Part shown: positions 13,532-53,799 of the stretch, piece by piece
How the letters are laid out: every line of letters begins with the position of its first letter
Numbering within the stretch: the first letter of the stretch is position 1
Assembly (NCBI RefSeq): GCF_014205275.1
Contig: NZ_JACHND010000001.1
Location: forward strand, 5,518,001 to 5,582,000
Source: Sphaerisporangium siamense
Lineage (GTDB): Bacteria; Actinomycetota; Actinomycetes; Streptosporangiales; Streptosporangiaceae
Reading direction: 5' to 3'
DNA length: 64,000 bases
Notes under the pieces: generated by a model
Seen by the model: only the letters and a program-made list of their open reading frames with translations
Database searches by the model: none
What the model was told of the DNA's origin: nothing
Position numbers and translations under genes: made by a program

Positions 13532-13570
13532 GACAGTGCCCCTATCTAACCATTGGATAGGGGCACTGTC
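13532..13570 (-). promoter_or_regulatory. 39-bp operator-like inverted repeat
   Basis: Perfect 15-bp arms, GACAGTGCCCCTATC (13532-13546) and GATAGGGGCACTGTC (13556-13570), are separated by 9 nt. The symmetry continues inward for two more pairs after one mismatch. On the minus strand TAGACA and TAGATA, 18 nt apart, fall in the two arms and could be the -35 and -10 of the membrane-protein gene. No adjacent regulator gene is seen. Confidence 0.6.
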
Positions 13571-20668: not shown

Positions 20669-21630
20669 GCCGCCACCCCGCCGCGGGAGCGCGCCGTGCG
20701 CAGGTACAGCAGGGCCGCCACCAGGTTGACCAGCAGGACGAGGAACGACACGGCCGCGCCGAAGCCGAGCCGCCCGCCGCGCAGCGCGACGTCGTAGATG
20801 TAGACCGGGACGATCTCCGAGCGTCCTTCGGGGCCGCCCGCCGTGATCTGGAAGCTCGTGAAGTCGTTGAACGTCCACAGGCTGATCAGCAGCATGTTGG
20901 TCAGCACGTGCCCGCGGATCCGCGGCAACACCACGTCCCTGATCTGCTGGAACGTCGAGGCGCCCGCCAGGCGCGCGGTCTCCAGGTGGGACGGCGGCAC
21001 GTTCTCCAGCGCCGCGCCGTACAACATCATCGAGAACGCCGTGCCGCGCCACACGTTGAACACGATGATCGAGGCCATCGGGTGGTCGAGCAGCCAGGCC
21101 GCGCCCGGGGTGTGCAGCAGCGCGTTCAGCGTGCCCGCGTCGCGGTCCAGCAGGGCGATCCACAGGAACGCCACCACCGAGGACGGCAGGATCCAGGCGA
21201 GCAGGATCAGCCCCTCCACGACCCTCTTCACCGGGCCCGGACGGTCGCGCAGCACCCACGCGACCGCGAACCCCAGCCCGGCCTGCCCGATCACCGCCGA
21301 TCCCGCGACGTACTGCGCCGTCAGCCACAGCGAGGCGTGGAACCGCTCGTCCCCGAGCGCCTCGGCGTAGTTGTCCACCCCCACCGTCCGCGGATCCGCG
21401 GCCGAGATCCCCGTCAGCGCGAAGTCCGTGACCCCCAGATAGATCGTCCACAGCGCCGGAAACACCAGGAAAACCCCGACCACCACCACCGCCGGCACCA
21501 CGAACCCGACCGCTCGCCGTATGCCCAACCCCGCCGCGTCTGCGTTAATGGGGCTCGCTCCGCTCGCCCGGGTGCGGGCGCTCTTGAGCCGGTGGTCTTC
21601 CGTCGTCGGGCCGAAGGGCTCGTTCCTCAC
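20665..21630 (-). CDS. sugar ABC permease, MalF-like
   Basis: A 321-aa permease with six membrane segments beginning at about residue 40; the EAA loop is seen in HLETARLAGASTFQQIRDVV. The only usable start I find is the GTG at 21630, preceded by AAAAGGAGGG. Start codon and Shine-Dalgarno both lie inside a nested palindromic repeat (21571-21671), so about the first 20 residues are repeat-encoded. A TTG at about 21523 would give a more conventional N-terminus but lacks a ribosome site. It follows the binding-protein gene by 121 nt on the same strand. Confidence 0.85.
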   Translation of the reverse strand: MRNEPFGPTTEDHRLKSARTRASGASPINADAAGLGIRRAVGFVVPAVVVVGVFLVFPALWTIYLGVTDFALTGISAADPRTVGVDNYAEALGDERFHASLWLTAQYVAGSAVIGQAGLGFAVAWVLRDRPGPVKRVVEGLILLAWILPSSVVAFLWIALLDRDAGTLNALLHTPGAAWLLDHPMASIIVFNVWRGTAFSMMLYGAALENVPPSHLETARLAGASTFQQIRDVVLPRIRGHVLTNMLLISLWTFNDFTSFQITAGGPEGRSEIVPVYIYDVALRGGRLGFGAAVSFLVLLVNLVAALLYLRTARSRGGVAA

Positions 21631-21671
21631 CCTTCGGCCCTCCTTTTCCAGACCACCGGCGCGCCCGCACC
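21571..21671. repeat. nested palindromic element, copy A
   Basis: Three coaxial stems. Outer: 21571-21581 with 21661-21671, 11 bp. Middle: GCCGGTGGTCT (21588-21598) with 21650-21660, 11 bp. Inner: GGGCCGAAGGG (21608-21618) with 21630-21640, 11 bp. The loop is CTCGTTCCTCA. A 6-nt bulge (TCTTGA) sits on the left side only. A second copy is at 27819-27919. A related 21-bp segment (GCGCTC..., 21688-21708) flanks it. Confidence 0.88.
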
Positions 21672-21751
21672 GTGTTCACGGTTCATTGCGCTCCCTTCGG
21701 TCGCGCGGTGGATGGGCGCTCACCCGCACGGCACGGGATCCTTTGGGTGGG

Positions 21752-23134
21752 TCAGCGGGAGATCGCTGAGGGGCCTACCAGGGATTGGAGTTGTCTGTCG
21801 TAGGCGGTGGCGGCCTCGTCCACGGGGGTGCCGGTGGTGACGGCGGCGGTGGCCTGTTGGAGGGCCGTGGAGATCTGGGGGTAGACGGCGAGGCCGGGGC
21901 GGTAGGCGGTGAGGGGGAGGACGCGGTCGGAGACGAAGGAGAGCATGGGGTCGTCTTTCAGGACCTCGTCGTTGACGTCGGTGCGCGAGGTGATCCTGGC
22001 CTCTCCGGCGAGGCCCGCCTTGGTGGCCTCGGCCGAGTGCATGAAGGCCAGCAGCTCCCACGCCAGGGCGGCGTTCTCGGAGCGGGGGTTCAGGACCCGC
22101 ACCGCGCCGCCGGACATGCTCACGAAGTCCTGCCCGCGCACGCCCGCGCCCGGCCGTTCGGCGGGGATCAGCGCGTAGCCGACGGCCCGGTCGCGGTCCT
22201 TCATCGGCGCGACGCCCGCCGTGGGCTCGATGACCGACCGCCAGAAGTAGTCGCCCTCGGCCAGGACGCCGATCCTGCCGTCGGCGAACTCCTGGAAGGA
22301 CTTGTCGCGGCCCTTGGCCTCCTGCTGCAGCCGGGGGTCGCCGAGGCCGGTGGTGTAGATCCGGCGATAGAGGTCGAGCACGTCCTTGAGCGCCTGGGAG
22401 GCGCCCGTCCACTTGCCGTTCGCGTAGATCTCCGCGCCGGCGCCCGCGAGCAGGGGCAGCGCGCCCTGCATGGAGGTGGCCTCGCCCATCGCCGTGCCCG
22501 CGTTGATCTGCAGCGGCGTGGGCACCCCCGCCTTCTTCAGGGCCGCGCCCGCGTCGAGGAGGTCCTGCCAGCTTCGCGGCTGCCAGGCGGCGGGCAGCCC
22601 GGCCCGCGCGAACAGGGTCTTGTTGTAGAACAGCACGCGGCCGTCGGTGCCCTGCGGCAGCCCGTACGTGCGGCCCTCGAAGACGCCGAGGCCCCGCACC
22701 GCCCGCGGGATGCGCGTCCAGCCCTCCCACCGGTCGACGGCGGGGCCGGCGGTGCCGGACAGCGGCTCGATGTACCCGGCCTGGGCGAACTCGCCGACCC
22801 AGATGCCGTCGAGGTCGATGACGTCGGCGCCGGTCCCGGACCTCAGGTCCAGGGCGATCTTGGTCTTGTACTCCTCGTCGTCCACGCCGTTGGGCTGGAA
22901 CACCACCCGGACGTCGCGGCCCGCGGCCTTCTGGGCCTGTTCGAACCTGGGGATCAGCCACTTGGCCGTCCAGTCGGCGGTCGCGGAGTTCTTGCCGCCG
23001 GAGATCGCGTTGGCGGTGACGGTGAGGGTGGTGCCGTCCGTCACGGGGGATGCGCCGGAGCCGCAGGCGGCGAGCAGGACGGTCAAGGAGACGGTGACCG
23101 CGGCCGGCAGGGGGAGCGTACGCGCTGATGTCAC
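21752..23134 (-). CDS. sugar-binding lipoprotein of ABC importer (family 1)
   Basis: A 460-aa extracellular solute-binding protein. The signal peptide ends in the lipobox VLLAAC with C24 lipidated, so it is anchored on the outer face of the membrane. The body matches family 1 (maltose-type) binding proteins, with acidic and aromatic residues expected around the sugar cleft. The GTG at 23134 follows GGGAGGT. It is the first gene of the minus-strand operon binding protein - permease - permease - ATPase - PHP - mannosidase. The linked GH38 suggests mannose-containing oligosaccharides as ligand; that is inference. Confidence 0.9.
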   Translation of the reverse strand: MTSARTLPLPAAVTVSLTVLLAACGSGASPVTDGTTLTVTANAISGGKNSATADWTAKWLIPRFEQAQKAAGRDVRVVFQPNGVDDEEYKTKIALDLRSGTGADVIDLDGIWVGEFAQAGYIEPLSGTAGPAVDRWEGWTRIPRAVRGLGVFEGRTYGLPQGTDGRVLFYNKTLFARAGLPAAWQPRSWQDLLDAGAALKKAGVPTPLQINAGTAMGEATSMQGALPLLAGAGAEIYANGKWTGASQALKDVLDLYRRIYTTGLGDPRLQQEAKGRDKSFQEFADGRIGVLAEGDYFWRSVIEPTAGVAPMKDRDRAVGYALIPAERPGAGVRGQDFVSMSGGAVRVLNPRSENAALAWELLAFMHSAEATKAGLAGEARITSRTDVNDEVLKDDPMLSFVSDRVLPLTAYRPGLAVYPQISTALQQATAAVTTGTPVDEAATAYDRQLQSLVGPSAISR

Positions 23135-23346
23135 GGAGGACCTCCCACGTTGGAGGCGTGCGTGTTTTCATGTCACGACAACTCGACAATCGCATGCCTG
23201 GTCTGAGGCGTAAAGACGATTTTTGTGGAACATGAGGCCCGATGGGCGGAAGCGGTTCGCGTTGAGCTGATCGTGGGAAGTGCAACGAGCACAGCACCAC
23301 GAGTAGGGTCGGCGTTGTAGCCGGAAGGTCCTTTGGAGGGAGTGGC
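23135..23346. promoter_or_regulatory. divergent promoter region, sugar operon / prcBA
   Basis: A 212-nt AT-richer gap. Toward prcB, TAGGGT (23304-23309) is a candidate -10 and GGAGGG (23335-23340) the ribosome site. Toward the sugar operon, on the minus strand, TTTACG and GATTGT 17 nt apart are a weak promoter match, with two direct TTGTCG copies next to it. No strong operator palindrome is seen, and no regulator gene lies in this operon. Confidence 0.4.
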
Positions 23347-24183
23347 GTGGCAGCACAGCCGGGCTGGATGGGCAATCTGTTCCTGGACACTGGGTCGACA
23401 TCGTTCACCGAGTTCGTCGGGTCGTACGCTCCAGGGTTGCTTCCGGGGCGGCTTCAGACGGCGGCGGGCGCGGCGGGCGAGACCATTCCGCACGCGACCA
23501 CGATCGTGGCCGCGACGTTCGCGGGCGGTGTGGTGATGGCGGGCGACCGGCGGGCCACCGCGGGCAACTACATCTCCCAGAAGGACATGGAGAAGGTCTT
23601 CCGCACCGACGACTATTCGTGCATGGGCATCGCCGGCGCGGCCAGCACCGGCATCGAGCTGGCCCGGCTCTACTGCGTCGAGCTGGAGCACTACGAGAAG
23701 CGCGAGGGCCGCACGCTGTCGGTCGTCGGCAAGGCCAACCGGCTGGCCACCATGATCCGCGGCAACCTGCCGATGGCCATGCAGGGCCTGGTGGTGGTGC
23801 CGCTGTTCGCGGCCTACGACGAGGAGCGCGACGCCGGCCGCATCTTCAGCTACGACGTCGGCGGCGGCCCCTACGAGCAGACCAACTACGCCTCGATCGG
23901 CTCCGGCTCCATCTTCGCGCGCGGTTCCCTGAAGAAGCTGTACCGCGAGGGCGCCTCCGCCGAGGACGTCGTCGCCGTCACCCTGAACGCCCTGTACGAC
24001 GCCGCCGACGACGACTCGGCCACCGGCGGCCCCGACGTCGCCCGCAAGATCTGGCCCATGGTGGCCGTGATCGACGACGAGGGGTTCCGGCGCCTGCCCG
24101 ACGAGGAGGTCGAGCGGCACGTCCGCCAGATCCTCGACGTCCGCATGGCCGACCCCGACGGCCCCACGGCCCCGCTGCGCTAA
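23347..24183 (+). CDS. prcB: 20S proteasome beta subunit PrcB
   Basis: Catalytic subunit of the core particle (278 aa). A 50-residue propeptide precedes the N-terminal nucleophile Thr51 in the sequence [11 protein letters not shown]. The conserved [15 protein letters not shown] segment contributes the catalytic Asp, and the downstream lysine environment is typical. The residue before the cleavage point is Ala (codon GCG) rather than the Gly I expect in actinobacterial PrcB. The GTG at 23347 follows GGAGGGAG. prcA follows after 33 nt. The pair is separated from pup by the sugar locus. Confidence 0.96.
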
Positions 24184-24216
24184 TCACAACCCACGGCCAC
24201 GAGAGGATCACCACCG

Positions 24217-25029
24217 GTGTCCATGCCCTTTGGATATGTGTCCCCAGAACAGGAGATGCGGGACAAGGCCGATTTCGCGCGGAAGGGCATCGCGCGCGGC
24301 CGCAGCGTCGTGGTGCTGCAGTACGAGAAAGGCATTCTTTTCGTCGCCCCCAACGCCTCCCGGGCGCTCCACAAGATCAGTGAGATCTACGACCGCATCG
24401 GCTTCGCGGCGGTCGGCAAGTACAACGAGTTCGAGGCCCTGCGCCTCGGCGGCATCCGCTACGCCGACATCAACGGCTACACCTACGACCGCGGCGACGT
24501 CACGGCCCGGGGCCTGGCCAACCTGTACGCGCAGTCGCTCGGCATGGTGTTCACCGAGTCGCGCAAGCCGTACGAGGTCGAGCTCGTCGTGGCCGAGGTG
24601 GGCGACGCCCCCGAGGACGACCAGATCTACCGCCTCACCTTCGACGGCTCGGTCGCCGACGAGCACGGCTTCGTGGTGATGGGCGGCGTGGCCGACGCCG
24701 TCGCCGCCCGCCTGAAGGACCGCTTCCGCCCCGGCCTCTCGCTCACCGAGGCGCTGGACGCGGCGGTGGCCGCGCTCACCGAGCCGGGGGGCGAGCGCCC
24801 GCCGGTCTCCCAGCTCGAGGTCGCGGTCCTGGACCGCACCAGGGAGCACCGCAAGTTCCAGCGGCTGACCGGCCCCCGCCTGGAGCGCCTGCTGGGCTCC
24901 TCCGCCGCGGAGGAGACCCCGCCGCAGGAGACGCCGCCGCAGGGCCCCGCGCCCGAGACCCCCTCCGTGGAGGGGGACTCCCCGGCGACCGCCCCCGAGG
25001 GGGAGATCGACACCGGCTCGGGCGACTAG
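24217..25029 (+). CDS. prcA: 20S proteasome alpha subunit PrcA
   Basis: A 270-aa alpha subunit forming the outer gating rings that ARC docks onto. The N-terminal alpha signature [20 protein letters not shown] is followed by the proteasome fold, and GRSVV leads the first strand. The C-terminal 40 residues are Pro/Glu-rich and disordered (repeated ETPPQ-type pieces), a variable feature of the family. The GTG at 24217 (VSMPFG) has GAGAGGAT about 9 nt upstream; the ATG at 24223 is an alternative. It has no catalytic Thr. It forms one operon with prcB. Confidence 0.95.
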
Positions 25030-25120
25030 CGGTCCGCTCCGGTATCACGATCCGGTCTCACGTCCCGGTCTCCGCCCGCGCGGGGTCCGGGACGCGCCGT
25101 TTCGGGGTACAGATGCGGGT

Positions 25121-25137
25121 GAGGGCCGCCGGCCCTC
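25121..25137 (+). terminator. hairpin after prcBA
   Basis: GAGGGCC-GCC-GGCCCTC is a perfect 7-bp hairpin about 90 nt after the prcA stop, in the 260-nt gap before pafA. It has no U-tract. The rest of the gap is GC-rich with no gene seen. Confidence 0.4.
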
Positions 25138-25277
25138 GCGAGGCGGGACCGCCGGAGCGTCAAGGGGGTGGAGATCCATGCGCCGCAGAGAAGATCCAGC
25201 GTCGCCTTCGCGTGCGGGTGCGGGGTCCTCCCCCCGAAACCCCGGAAAGATCCCTCCCCTCGCGGGCTCGGAGAACA

Positions 25278-25283
25278 TAGTGT
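25278..25283 (+). promoter_or_regulatory. -10 box of a leaderless pafA mRNA
   Basis: TAGTGT followed by 6 nt and the ATG at 25290 places the predicted first transcribed base on the A of the start codon. There is no Shine-Dalgarno within 15 nt. Confidence 0.5.
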
Positions 25284-25289
25284 GATGTG

Positions 25290-26648
25290 ATGGATCGTCG
25301 CATCTTCGGCTTGGAGAACGAATACGGCGTCACCTGCACGTTCAGGGGCCAGCGCAGGCTGTCCCCGGACGAGGTGGCGCGGTACCTGTTCCGCAGAGTC
25401 GTGTCCTGGGGCCGATCGAGCAACGTGTTCCTGCGAAACGGCGCCCGCCTCTACCTCGACGTCGGCAGCCACCCCGAATACGCCACCCCCGAATGTGACA
25501 ACGTCGTGGAGCTCGTCACCCACGACAAGGCCGGCGAGCGCATCCTCGAAGGTCTGCTCGTGGACGCCGAGAAGCGTCTGCGCGAGGAGGGCATCGCCGG
25601 GGACATCTACCTATTCAAGAACAACACCGACTCGGCCGGGAACTCCTACGGCTGTCATGAGAACTATCTGGTCGGCAGGCACGGCGAGTTCGGCCGCCTG
25701 GCCGACGTCCTGATCCCCTTCCTGGTGACCCGGCAGATCATCTGCGGGGCGGGCAAGGTGCTCCAGACGCCGCGCGGCGCGGTCTACTGCGTCTCCCAGC
25801 GCGCCGAGCACATCTGGGAGGGGGTGTCGAGCGCGACGACCCGCTCACGCCCGATCATCAACACCCGGGACGAGCCGCACGCCGACGCCGAGCGCTTCCG
25901 GCGGCTGCACGTCATCGTCGGCGACTCCAACATGAGCGAGACCACGATGCTGCTCAAGGTCGGCGCCACCGACCTGGTGCTGCGCATGGTGGAGGCCGGC
26001 ACGGTCATGCGCGACCTCAGCCTGGAGAACCCGATCCGGGCGATCCGCGAGGTCTCCCACGACATGACCGGCCGCAGGCGCGTGCGGCTGGCCAACGGCC
26101 GCGAGGCGTCGTCGCTGGAGATCCAGCAGGAGTACCTGACCAAGGCGCGCGACTTCGTCGAGCGCCGGGGCGGCGACGCGACCACGCGACGGGTGCTGGA
26201 GCTGTGGGAGCGCACGTTGCGGGCCGTGGAGACCGGCGACCTCGACCTGGTCTCGCGCGAGATCGACTGGGTCACCAAGTACCAGCTCATCGAGCGCTAC
26301 CGCAGCAAGTACGACCTGCCGCTGTCCTCGCCGAGGGTCGCCCAGCTCGACCTGGCCTACCACGACGTCCACCGCAAGCGGGGCCTGTTCTACCTGCTGC
26401 AGCGGCGCGGCGCCGTGGAGCGCGTCGCCTCGGACCTGAAGATCTTCGAGGCCAAGTCGGTCCCGCCGCAGACCACCCGGGCCAGGCTGCGCGGGGAGTT
26501 CATCCGCAAGGCGCAGGAGAAGCGCCGCGACTTCACCGTCGACTGGGTGCACCTCAAGCTCAACGACCAGGCCCAGCGCACGGTCCTCTGCAAGGACCCG
26601 TTCCGCAGCGTGGACGAGCGGGTCGACAAGCTGATCGCCGGCATGTGA
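25290..26648 (+). CDS. pafA: Pup-protein ligase PafA
   Basis: ATP-dependent ligase joining the gamma-carboxylate of Pup-Glu to substrate lysines (452 aa, the family length). The N-terminal [12 protein letters not shown] carries the metal-binding Glu residues, then [11 protein letters not shown] and [19 protein letters not shown]. It lacks the loop found in Dop, which distinguishes the two paralogs. I choose the ATG at 25290 over the GTG at 25287 because it aligns with the usual MDRRIFG start and with a leaderless -10 box. A terminator-like hairpin follows at 26661-26693, so pafA seems monocistronic. Confidence 0.97.
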
Positions 26649-26660
26649 GCCGGCGCTGCC

Positions 26661-26693
26661 GGGCCCGTCCCCGCCGGGGCGCGGGACGGGTCC
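26661..26693 (+). terminator. hairpin after pafA
   Basis: GGGCCCGTCCC (26661-26671) pairs with GGGACGGGTCC (26683-26693) with one G-T wobble and an 11-nt loop, 12 nt after the pafA stop. Confidence 0.55.
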
Positions 26694-26829
26694 GCGGGCG
26701 GCTTTCACGGCCCTGAGCAGGGTTCCTCGAAGGAAAGGTCACGCTTCGGCAAGATCGAGGCGGATGATCCGGGCGCCACCGGGCTTCGGGTAGTGTTACG
26801 CGAACGTGACGTCTCTCCGAGGGAAACCC

Positions 26830-27777
26830 ATGCGCCGACTGGCCCTGCTCGCCGCCCTTCCGCTGTTGTTCGCCGCCGCCTGCGGCACCGACGGCGACGT
26901 CACCGCCAAGACCGACGGCGCGGCGCCCGCCGAGGTCAAGGTGACCGGTGAGGTCGGCAAGAAGCCCCAGGTCGCCTTCCCCTCGGGCAAGCCTCCCGTG
27001 ACCTCCTCGTCCAAGACCATCACCCCGGGTCAGGGCGCGCAGCTCAAGGAAGGCGACTCGGTCGTCGCCAACCTCACGGCCTACAACTGGGACGGCAAGG
27101 CCAACGCGATGTCCGGCTCCACCTACGACGAGGGGGCGCCGCAGCTCATCAAGGTCGACTCCAAGCTGCCCACCGTCGTGCACAAGGCGTTCCAGGCCAA
27201 CAAGGTCGGCGGCCGGTTCCTCGCCGTCGTCGCCAAGGACAGCCTGACCCCCGAGCAGATGGAGCAGGCCAAGTCGCAGGGCGCGGACACCTCGATCGCG
27301 AGCGTCTACGTCGTGGACGTGCTCGGCGTGCCCACCGTCAAGGCCGCCCAGGGCGACGCCAAGGACGCCGACGTCAAGGGCGTCAAGCTGGAGAACCCCG
27401 AGGGAGAGCAGGCGCCCAAGCTGACCACCAAGACCGGTGAGTCCGCGCCCAAGGGCCTGGTCAGCAAGACCGTGATCAAGGGTAGCGGGCCGGAGGTCAA
27501 GGCCGGGCAGAACCTGCTCGTGCAGTACACGGGCAAGATCTGGGGCACCGACACCGAGTTCGACAGCAGCTGGAGCCGGGGCGAGCCGGTCATGTTCCAG
27601 ATCGGCACCGGCAAGGTCATCAAGGGCTGGGACCAGGGCCTGGTCGGCGTGCCGGTGGGCAGCCGCGTGCTGCTGGCCATCCCGCCGGACCTGGGCTACG
27701 GCAAGAACGGCCAGGGGGACAAGATCAAGGGCACGGACACGCTCGTCTTCGTGGTGGACGTGCTCGGCGCGTATTAA
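26830..27777 (+). CDS. FKBP-type peptidyl-prolyl isomerase lipoprotein
   Basis: A 315-aa exported foldase. The signal peptide RRLALLAALPLLFAAAC ends in a lipobox with C18. The C-terminal 110 residues are a canonical FKBP domain (VQYTGKIWGTDTEFDSSW, GKVIKGWDQGLVGVPVGSR, LGYG). The N-terminal half (about 70-185) resembles a degenerate second FKBP fold lacking most active-site residues. I prefer the ATG at 26830 with GAGGGA 5 nt upstream; the GTG at 26806 behind a TAGTGT box is possible. It sits at the PafA end of the proteasome locus. A nested palindromic repeat starts 41 nt after its stop. Confidence 0.88.
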   Translation: MRRLALLAALPLLFAAACGTDGDVTAKTDGAAPAEVKVTGEVGKKPQVAFPSGKPPVTSSSKTITPGQGAQLKEGDSVVANLTAYNWDGKANAMSGSTYDEGAPQLIKVDSKLPTVVHKAFQANKVGGRFLAVVAKDSLTPEQMEQAKSQGADTSIASVYVVDVLGVPTVKAAQGDAKDADVKGVKLENPEGEQAPKLTTKTGESAPKGLVSKTVIKGSGPEVKAGQNLLVQYTGKIWGTDTEFDSSWSRGEPVMFQIGTGKVIKGWDQGLVGVPVGSRVLLAIPPDLGYGKNGQGDKIKGTDTLVFVVDVLGAY

Positions 27778-27818
27778 TGGCGCTCTCTGCGTTTGATGGC
27801 GCTCTCTTCGTTCGCGCG

Positions 27819-27919
27819 GGGCTGGGCGCCTTTTAGCCGGCGGTCTTCCACCCGCGGGCGCAAGGGATCGTTCCTCACCCTTGCGCCCGCGGGCTCCAGA
27901 CCGCCGGCGCGCCCAGCCC
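27819..27919. repeat. nested palindromic element, copy B
   Basis: Outer stem 27819-27829 with 27909-27919 (11 bp). Middle GCCGGCGGTCT (27836-27846) with 27898-27908 (11 bp). Inner 27851-27866 with 27878-27893 (16 bp). The loop is ATCGTTCCTCA. The 6-nt left bulge is CTTTTA. All stems are perfect. Upstream is a 17-bp tandem duplication starting ATGGCGCTCTCT (about 27777 and 27795). Same orientation as copy A at 21571. Confidence 0.88.
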
Positions 27920-28026
27920 GTCATGACTTTTGATCTCGGTTATGGGTTTTTGATCTACGTTGTAAAGCCGTTGGGGTTGTGTTGATCTGGGTGGCTTCGT
28001 GTCCGGAGGGGGATGTGGGGGCGGCC

Positions 28027-28032
28027 TATGCT
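28027..28032 (+). promoter_or_regulatory. -10 box of a leaderless regulator mRNA
   Basis: TATGCT plus 6 nt leads directly to the GTG at 28039. An upstream GGAGGGGG (about 28004) could instead serve a GTG at 28015. Confidence 0.45.
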
Positions 28033-28038
28033 CGTCTG

Positions 28039-28692
28039 GTGAGCGGTGATGACGCTGGTACGCCGGATCCTTTGGGGGCGGTCGGCGCGCTGCGCGACCC
28101 GGTGCGGCGGGCGCTGTACGACTACGTGGCCGGTCGGGGCCACGAGGTGGGGCGGGACGAGGCCGCGAGCGGGGCGGGGGTGGGGCGCACGCTGGCGGCC
28201 TTTCACCTGGACAAGCTCGTCGAGGCCGGGCTGCTGGAGGCGGGCTTTCGCCGGCTGACCGGGCGCACCGGGCCGGGGAGCGGGCGCCCGGCCAAGGTCT
28301 ACCGCCGCTCGCGGCGTGAGCACCAGGTGAGCGTGCCGCCGCGTGACTACCGCACGCTGGCCCTCGTGCTGGCCGAGGCCGTGGAGGAGCTCGGCGGCGA
28401 GGAGGCCGCCGAGGCCGCGGCGCGGCGGGCGGGGGAGCGGGTCAAGGCGTCCGAGCTGCGCGAGGCCCTGCGGGAGCGCGGCTACGAGCCGTATGACGCC
28501 GAGGGGGCGATCCGCCTGCGCAACTGCCCCTTCCACGTGATCGCCGAGGACCGCCCGGTGCTGGTCTGCGCGATGAACCTGGCGCTGTGCGAGGGCTTGG
28601 TGGCCGCGGTGGGCGAGGAGGGCGTCACGCCGCGGCTCGATCCCCGGCCGGGGGAGTGCTGCGTCGCCTTCTCTAAAAACAATGAGGATTGA
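28039..28692 (+). CDS. winged-HTH regulator with C-terminal Cys cluster
   Basis: A 217-aa DNA-binding protein. A winged helix at about 12-90 (DPVRRALYDYV, then AFHLDKLVEAGLLEAGF) resembles DeoR/ArsR/SufR-type domains. The C-terminal half ends in a metal-binding-looking set: C163 and H166 (NCPFH), C177, C184 and C207-C208. The layout resembles SufR-like iron-sulfur sensing repressors, but the spacing is not one I can assign with certainty. The GTG at 28039 is chosen for its leaderless -10 box. It is followed after 32 nt by a DUF3291 gene whose -35 overlaps its last codons. Confidence 0.7.
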   Translation: MSGDDAGTPDPLGAVGALRDPVRRALYDYVAGRGHEVGRDEAASGAGVGRTLAAFHLDKLVEAGLLEAGFRRLTGRTGPGSGRPAKVYRRSRREHQVSVPPRDYRTLALVLAEAVEELGGEEAAEAAARRAGERVKASELREALRERGYEPYDAEGAIRLRNCPFHVIAEDRPVLVCAMNLALCEGLVAAVGEEGVTPRLDPRPGECCVAFSKNNED

Positions 28693-53582: not shown

Positions 53583-53611
53583 TGCTCCTCGTCGCGCGGG
53601 CCGTCCTGTCG

Positions 53612-53634
53612 GAGTTAGGAAAGGTTCCTAACTC
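53612..53634. promoter_or_regulatory. ROK operator palindrome
   Basis: GAGTTAGGAA (53612-53621) and TTCCTAACTC (53625-53634) are perfect 10-bp arms around AGG, about 30 nt before the ROK start. AT-rich symmetric sites of this kind are typical of ROK repressors, so the whole operon is probably autoregulated from here. Confidence 0.7.
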
Positions 53635-53799
53635 AGTAGGGACGGTACCCTCACGCACCCGAGCAGGGTCAATAGGCTCTACCAAGCTGTGACCCGGAGG
53701 GAGTCGGGGATCACCGCGCGTGACGGGCGGCCGCGGCCGCCCCCGGAAACGCGAAAGCCGTCGCGGACGGCGACGGCGACGGGCATGCGAAGGGCGATC

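Follow-up and report, generated by a model that had tools for sequence, protein, structure and literature searches.

What are the two nested palindromes that lie in the window, the whole analysed stretch of 64,000 nucleotides from the genome of Sphaerisporangium siamense, and what keeps their arms complementary? Both belong to a repeat unit of about 130 bp, in which a conserved left end is followed by a small hairpin and then by the nested hairpin. The individual parts are located as follows:

21541..21570, + strand: left module of copy 1, a GCGTTAATGG end plus a small hairpin GGGC-TCGCTCCGCTC-GCCC with stems 21551-21554/21566-21569 (sequence)
21571..21671, + strand: core of copy 1, with outer stem 21571-21581/21661-21671, bulge 21582-21587, middle stem 21588-21598/21650-21660, inner stem 21608-21618/21630-21640 and loop 21619-21629 (sequence, fold, match of the covariance model R1 at contig positions 5539568-5539673)
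21672..21720, + strand: truncated second unit, made up of a left module and the 5' arm of the outer stem, directly behind copy 1 (sequence)
27774..27790, + strand: truncated left-module fragment ahead of copy 2 (by eye from the sequence)
27789..27818, + strand: left module of copy 2, small hairpin GCGC-TCTCTTCGTTC-GCGC with stems 27799-27802/27814-27817
27819..27919, + strand: core of copy 2, with outer stem 27819-27829/27909-27919, bulge 27830-27835, middle stem 27836-27846/27898-27908, inner stem 27851-27866/27878-27893 and loop 27867-27877 (sequence, fold, inverted-repeat list, R1 match at contig positions 5545816-5545921)

The architecture described in the earlier note, with an 11-bp outer stem, a 6-nt bulge on one side only, an 11-bp middle stem, an internal loop, an inner stem of 11 or 16 bp and an 11-nt loop, is borne out by sequence and folds. 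The same holds on the sequence for its six differences in the 33 shared pairs (three outer, one middle, two inner), all of them compensated, and for the agreement of the two loops at 10 of 11 positions. Measured against dinucleotide shuffles on either strand, both copies fold with z-scores of -6.6 to -10.0, and 0 of 200 shuffles was as good in each of the four folds; copy 2 ranks first among the 25 longest of the 78 inverted repeats listed for the window. Each copy follows a left module of 30 nt that contains a small hairpin, the short stem of which is also compensated between the copies (GGGC/GCCC versus GCGC/GCGC), and left modules similar to that of copy 1 stand in front of the other family copies inspected for them. 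Behind copy 1, the second unit matches the left module at 21685-21707 with 3 mismatches (0 expected from shuffles).

Further copies, which the earlier note had proposed to look for, are present in S. siamense as well as in the Streptosporangiaceae. The covariance model matches 13 places in the S. siamense genome (G000), corresponding to 23 matches since several places were matched on both strands; an exact seed search yielded 14 matches, three of which (L003, L006, L010) are not copies. Twelve of the 13 cores are situated between predicted genes and one overlaps the last 20 nt of a gene. The model also matches 7 of 11 same-genus genomes, and within the Streptosporangiaceae 41 of 250 genomes and 17 of 68 genera. 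A scan of named genomes recovered the element in 23 of 31 stretches, one from Microtetraspora and 22 from Sphaerisporangium, all 22 of which carry a model match; the eight other stretches (Streptomyces, two of Promicromonospora, Cellulosimicrobium and four MAGs) were dropped, as none was better than E 0.02. A viral origin was discarded, the exact pattern being absent from the viral contigs searched. Where units stand in tandem, neighbouring ones lie 109-131 bp apart in all but two of the 17 pairs (15 of 17). Searching the S. siamense genome for the left end gave nine matches, compared with two for the control; five are at known copies, and the other four lack a hairpin unit and look like chance.

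The occurrence of the repeat differs even between close relatives. In the neighbour genome G007, which is about 95% identical to S. siamense where aligned, six of the 19 places compared are shared and 13 are occupied in one genome only, with no model match at E<=1 at the 13 empty loci. Copy 2 at 27819 is missing from all eight aligned relatives, and no model match below E 0.6 was detected at its locus in those eight, in G001 or in G015. S. rufum carries three identical 104-nt cores on three contigs with different left flanks, and at site 1 there is a tandem gain, with two units in G007 and one in S. siamense. A left-unit remnant is kept at 5 of the 13 "empty" sites, so that some of the presence/absence differences are losses; loss of the hairpin by slippage may account for the short left unit at such sites. 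No target-site duplication was recognised by eye at the aligned empty sites, where the element boundaries are blurred because the intergenic sequence has diverged, and no transposase or recombinase partner was found. An insertion of about 3 kb at site 2 in G001 was set aside as an ordinary enzyme-like gene (by eye) without a model match. We also considered IS1272-type stem-loop replacement, in the form outlined in PMC5678879, as a source of palindrome footprints. Given its patchy presence and the identical S. rufum cores with different left flanks, the repeat behaves like a small non-autonomous mobile element, and the mobile-element reading of the two hairpins is well supported. Among the three options of the earlier note (folded RNA, DNA cruciform, hairpin-borne mobile element), the last is thus favoured by the variable occupancy of sites, the dispersal of identical cores and the gain of a tandem unit; a DNA hairpin or cruciform stays a candidate, whereas folded RNA as the main cause of the covariation is not supported.

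This last point rests on how the arms change. In 11 copies of S. siamense, 18 of 39 pairs are compensated, a number reached by 0 of 500 shuffles. The earlier note would have given way to many uncompensated stem changes; we found 44 cells changed on both sides versus 2 on one side, although non-standard pairs, mostly towards the outer end of the inner stem, occupy 39 of 417 cells. The aligned set comprises 100 distinct rows (137 model matches minus 36 second-strand or overlapping ones and one duplicate row), which were fitted to the model so that the alignment leans towards the model's bulge and pairs, and contains 336 two-sided Watson-Crick cells versus a shuffle mean of 78.6 and a maximum of 102 (1000 shuffles). 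Over 21 pairs, leaving out the C-A mismatch column, 24 of 2062 cells are G-T and 34 A-C; including it, 24 and 100 of 2161. RNase P RNA from the same family, taken as a control with a structure predicted by a program for which G-T counts as a pair and A-C does not, has 205 G-T and 23 A-C in 2503 cells. One-sided and two-sided changes number 17 and 343 in the repeat versus 88 and 153 in RNase P RNA. Hence, the covariation is overwhelming yet without the wobble signature of RNA, and the match between the arms looks as if it were maintained in the DNA itself and not via selection on RNA. Among recent changes, two orthologous copies differ by a compensated double change (T-A/G-C and G-C/C-G), and five orthologous copies together show four one-sided changes versus two compensated pairs; the site 1 ortholog pair L021/L117 (4 two-sided, 5 one-sided) was omitted from this count because its units do not correspond. 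When every adjacent tandem pair in the aligned set is counted (17 pairs), 35 one-sided changes compare with 16 compensated ones, both figures stemming in part from truncated unit junctions. As recent one-sided changes outnumber the compensated ones, the arms do not heal at once, and simple selection for pairing may also be at work.

The unpaired parts are conserved as well. Within the model-fitted rows, the bulge is on the 5' side in 99 of 100, the loop motif is in the forward sense in 97 of 100 and inverted in 1 of 100, and one middle-stem pair is C-A in 66 of 99, suggesting that something reads the shape. One S. siamense copy has lost exactly the 6-nt bulge that G007 keeps there; this loss and the loop inversion suggest DNA-level events.

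Conservation of the loop could also be a sign of an RNA role, and a structured RNA element (3' UTR stabiliser, attenuator or small RNA) with helices kept by base-pairing selection would fit the very strong folding and covariation, the conserved bulge, and the frequent one-sided changes in recent copies, which pairing selection would also give. Moreover, 7 of the 13 S. siamense copies read in the same direction as both neighbouring genes, and the conserved C-A mismatch corresponds to a U-G wobble on the minus strand. However, that one column aside, a G-T excess is absent on either strand, 4 of the 13 copies run opposite to both neighbouring genes, one copy has an inverted loop and the presence is patchy. 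Rfam returned no match above the gathering score in the window and seven sub-threshold matches in four copies (L004, L009, L012, L014), the best being mir-614 with 40.2 bits versus a cut-off of 90. Rho-independent terminators were called three times in 21300-28200 versus 2.3 times in shuffles, the nearest call (27789-27802) being inside the left module of copy 2; with a count near chance and no site at either hairpin core, the terminator reading was rejected. Because the G-T excess is missing, both gene orientations occur and one loop is inverted, RNA selection is unsupported as the main cause of the covariation, and we regard a structured RNA as unlikely. A passive palindrome, which spread long ago or by recombination and now undergoes only quasipalindrome correction, slippage and deletion without dedicated mobility, would explain the tandem gain, the remnant left units at empty sites, the double changes and the exact bulge loss. 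It is nevertheless rather improbable in view of the three loci whose cores are identical but whose left flanks differ, of lineage-specific copies such as that at 27819, and of unpaired features that correction alone would wipe out but that persist in 97-99 of 100 rows.

Mobilisation by a REP-associated tyrosine transposase (RAYT), as for REPINs, draws on the compensatory arm changes and clusters that PMC3116915 describes for these hairpin repeats, and on Y1_Tnp matches, which, counted at any length, are present in 7 of the 9 genomes that bear the element and in 7 of the 32 that do not (genomes searched with both queries; Fisher p 0.004, ignoring phylogeny). Matches over at least 100 positions, however, occur in 3 of 9 versus 5 of 32; S. 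siamense has a partial match only (positions 43-120 of 121), G010, with its 27 element matches, and G016 have none, and the 17 Y1 loci examined, of 20 returned, contain 0 R1 matches at E<=1. With weak co-occurrence and no proximity, we rejected the link and consider this route very improbable. Instead, both structures are probably, at somewhat better than even confidence, copies of a non-coding, non-autonomous mobile repeat of about 130 bp of the Streptosporangiaceae, in which the DNA level would be the main one at which the arms stay complementary. One arm may be copied onto the other by template switching (quasipalindrome correction), a DNA hairpin may be selected for, or both may apply, and the unpaired features, which such copying would erase, would be kept because they are read, in the folded strand, by a putative recombinase or transposase. 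A bolder version, which we put forward tentatively and think doubtful, is that a shape-reading recombinase, of a type so far unconnected with repeats like these, moves the family in the form of one folded strand of DNA. The one-sided 6-nt bulge, the fixed C-A mismatch, the unpaired spacer and the apical loop could serve as its cues; under such recognition the arm sequences would be free and would therefore be continually rewritten by template switching.

If this is true, shape-read movement of a single strand would follow an attC-like logic without an integron. An actinomycete family gains a mobile repeat for which no name was found in Rfam or in the open-licence papers searched, and RNA discovery a warning, since covariation far above shuffles arose here although the wobble pairs that RNA selection leaves behind are lacking. 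Its roughly 100 copies, the empty sites and the existence of a close neighbour make the repeat a natural system to measure template-switch correction and to find a DNA-shape-reading enzyme.

Among known systems, ERIC/IRU repeats are intergenic and lie near gene ends. The account in PMC2229807 gives them 100-200 bp, long stem-loops and transcription with adjacent genes, treats their movement by a transposase as hypothesised, not shown, and lists ERIC with 7-bp terminal inverted repeats, TA ends and a target-site duplication. The Sphaerisporangium repeat agrees with ERIC, an intergenic hairpin repeat of about 127 bp, in its mostly intergenic location and its unit spacing; at the sequence level the comparison was that with Rfam. 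These ends and the duplication were not recognised in it, its boundaries being blurred by divergence; its left end forms a hairpin module of its own, and its units can stand in tandem. REPINs, as portrayed in PMC3116915, share with it hairpins with common compensatory changes, clusters and dispersed extragenic copies. A REPIN consists of two inverted REPs, whereas our unit is built as one hairpin nested in another, in which a single bulge is conserved. attC sites are marked by box motifs. They are palindromic and read as a folded strand, and one-sided extrahelical bases are important for their recognition according to the part of PMC3053210 devoted to them; no cassette arrangement was seen around the repeat described here. 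Finally, the template-switch cases presented in PMC8794818, one of them in Actinobacteria, combine compensatory changes arising in one event with loop inversions, and compensated double changes and an inverted loop also occur here; those hairpins belong to rRNA and microRNA genes, whereas ours form a dispersed repeat family that varies in presence and absence.

Both nested hairpins in the window have the positions and the architecture that the earlier note had ascribed to them. From the base inwards, each comprises an outer stem of 11 bp, a 6-nt bulge confined to the 5' side, a middle stem of 11 bp, an internal loop, an inner stem (11 or 16 bp) and an apical loop of 11 nt. The six differences among their 33 shared pairs are indeed all compensated, and on either strand the folding of both copies lies far below that of shuffles (z -6.6 to -10.0). 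Inverted repeats in the window include:

21571-21671, core of copy 1, between a transporter permease gene and a solute-binding protein gene
27819-27919, core of copy 2, between a gene for an FKBP-type isomerase and one whose helix-turn-helix match falls below the cut-off
13532-13570, inverted repeat of 18 bp (94%) with a 3-nt spacer (GACAGTGCCCCTATCTAA / TTGGATAGGGGCACTGTC), unlike the element in sequence
53601-53645, inverted repeat of 21 bp (81%) with a 3-nt spacer

Beside copy 1 (region 21541-21630, minus strand), the permease gene has ATT at the left end of the element where the compared genomes G003, G004, G007 and G010 have ATG and G002 and G008 have GTG. Since an in-frame GTG also lies at the edge of the loop, the start of this gene may have been altered.

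The two copies belong to a larger family, as both the seed search and the covariance model R1 found the further genomic copies that the earlier note had proposed to look for. The exact seed TCGTTCCTCACCC matches 14 times in the 8.5-Mb S. siamense genome versus once for the reversed control, with the same nested structure at 11 of the 14 matches. R1, made from 11 seed-found copies of S. siamense, matched 13 places in this genome and 10 of 60 genomes including S. siamense (same genus 7/11, rest of the family 3/26, outside the family 0/23). Among 250 genomes of the Streptosporangiaceae it matched 41, and the 11 new loci listed by this search (L255-L265) all carry the nested hairpin with a 5' bulge of 5 or 6 nt, eight of them with at most one letter of the loop motif changed. 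A scan of named genomes, in which 23 of 31 matching stretches are the element, ties the family to Microtetraspora and Sphaerisporangium (S. perillae, S. rufum, S. album, S. melleum, S. fuscum).

A full unit starts with a conserved left end, CTGTGYYYATGGC or a near variant. Next comes a small hairpin, with either a loop resembling TCGCTCCGCTC or a longer GC stem, and then the nested hairpin. The spacing of adjacent tandem units fits this layout, at 109-131 bp for 15 of the 17 pairs. When 100 distinct rows were fitted to the model, 99 had a 5' bulge, exactly 6 nt long in 77 (mostly CYTTGA), and 97 had the loop motif in the forward direction; the motif is inverted in one row and absent from two. 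At one pair of the middle stem, 66 of 99 rows have C-A. In another genus (L263:1501-1601), a different small palindrome (GGGCGTTGAACGCCC) takes the place of the apical loop.

According to a simple GC-frame gene caller, 12 of the 13 S. siamense cores are intergenic and one overlaps the final 20 nt of a gene. Seven copies are oriented with both neighbours, four against both, one lies between convergent genes and one is ambiguous. We located all 13 copies by their flanks in G007, a close neighbour (~95% identical where aligned), and the six unshared G007 copies in S. siamense: of these 19 places, six are common, seven occupied only in S. siamense and six only in G007. None of the 13 empty loci gave an R1 match at E<=1. 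Eight are without a recognisable remnant, two of them (L025, L178) poorly aligned, and five retain a left unit, a left half or a piece of one (L017, L018, L175, L176, L177). As G003 too has a copy at the L017 place, G007 has probably lost this hairpin. One place holds two tandem units in G007 versus one in S. siamense. Copy 2 is missing from all eight aligned relatives; copy 1 has counterparts in the equivalent gap of G003, G004, G007 and G010, and the gap in G002, G008 and G015 gave no R1 match. Near the place of copy 2, between the FKBP gene and the gene that follows, S. melleum (L125) carries an insertion of ~3 kb with one long minus-strand ORF that by eye resembles a secreted glycosidase. 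In S. rufum, three identical 104-nt cores lie on three contigs with differing left flanks, and their right flanks have a degenerate repeat in common. A degenerate, minisatellite-like repeat, GGGGTGG...GCGGCGGGGTGACC, follows the core at the S. rufum loci L179, L180, L181 and L184.

Covariation in the element far exceeds that of shuffles, but a helix selected as RNA passes through G-U and avoids A-C. The RNase P RNA control, taken from 21 Streptosporangiaceae genomes and with a structure from RNAalifold, which permits G-T, has 205 G-T and 23 A-C among 2503 cells, and 88 one-sided versus 153 two-sided changes. For the outer and middle stems of the element, whose rows, largely paralogous, had been fitted to a structural model, the counts are 24 G-T and 34 A-C among 2062 cells and 17 one-sided versus 343 two-sided changes with the conserved-mismatch column left out; with this column, A-C rises to 100 of 2161 cells. 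Recent changes in the arms are mixed. Five orthologous copies show two compensated double changes (T-A/G-C, G-C/C-G) versus four one-sided changes, and one bulge exactly missing. The 17 adjacent tandem pairs show 16 two-sided versus 35 one-sided differences in model columns, part of both kinds being caused by truncated unit junctions; in S. album, the clearest case, three compensated pairs are among eight differences. Mismatches thus arise and healing comes later, which could proceed by copying between the arms or by selection on pairing. The DNA level is favoured only by three observations: no excess of G-T, an inverted loop and the exact loss of a bulge. One report describes template switching as a source of such patterns, loop inversion included (PMC8794818).

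Pure arm-to-arm correction would erase the bulge and the mismatch too. Their retention therefore calls for a putative reader that recognises them.

Regarding known systems, no Rfam family matched the element above its gathering score, viral contigs gave no hit to the exact pattern, no terminators were found at the hairpin cores and no RAYT near the element at the loci examined. ERIC, REPIN and attC each resemble its workings in a different respect. The element lacks the tested features of REPINs, and it is like ERIC in size and location.
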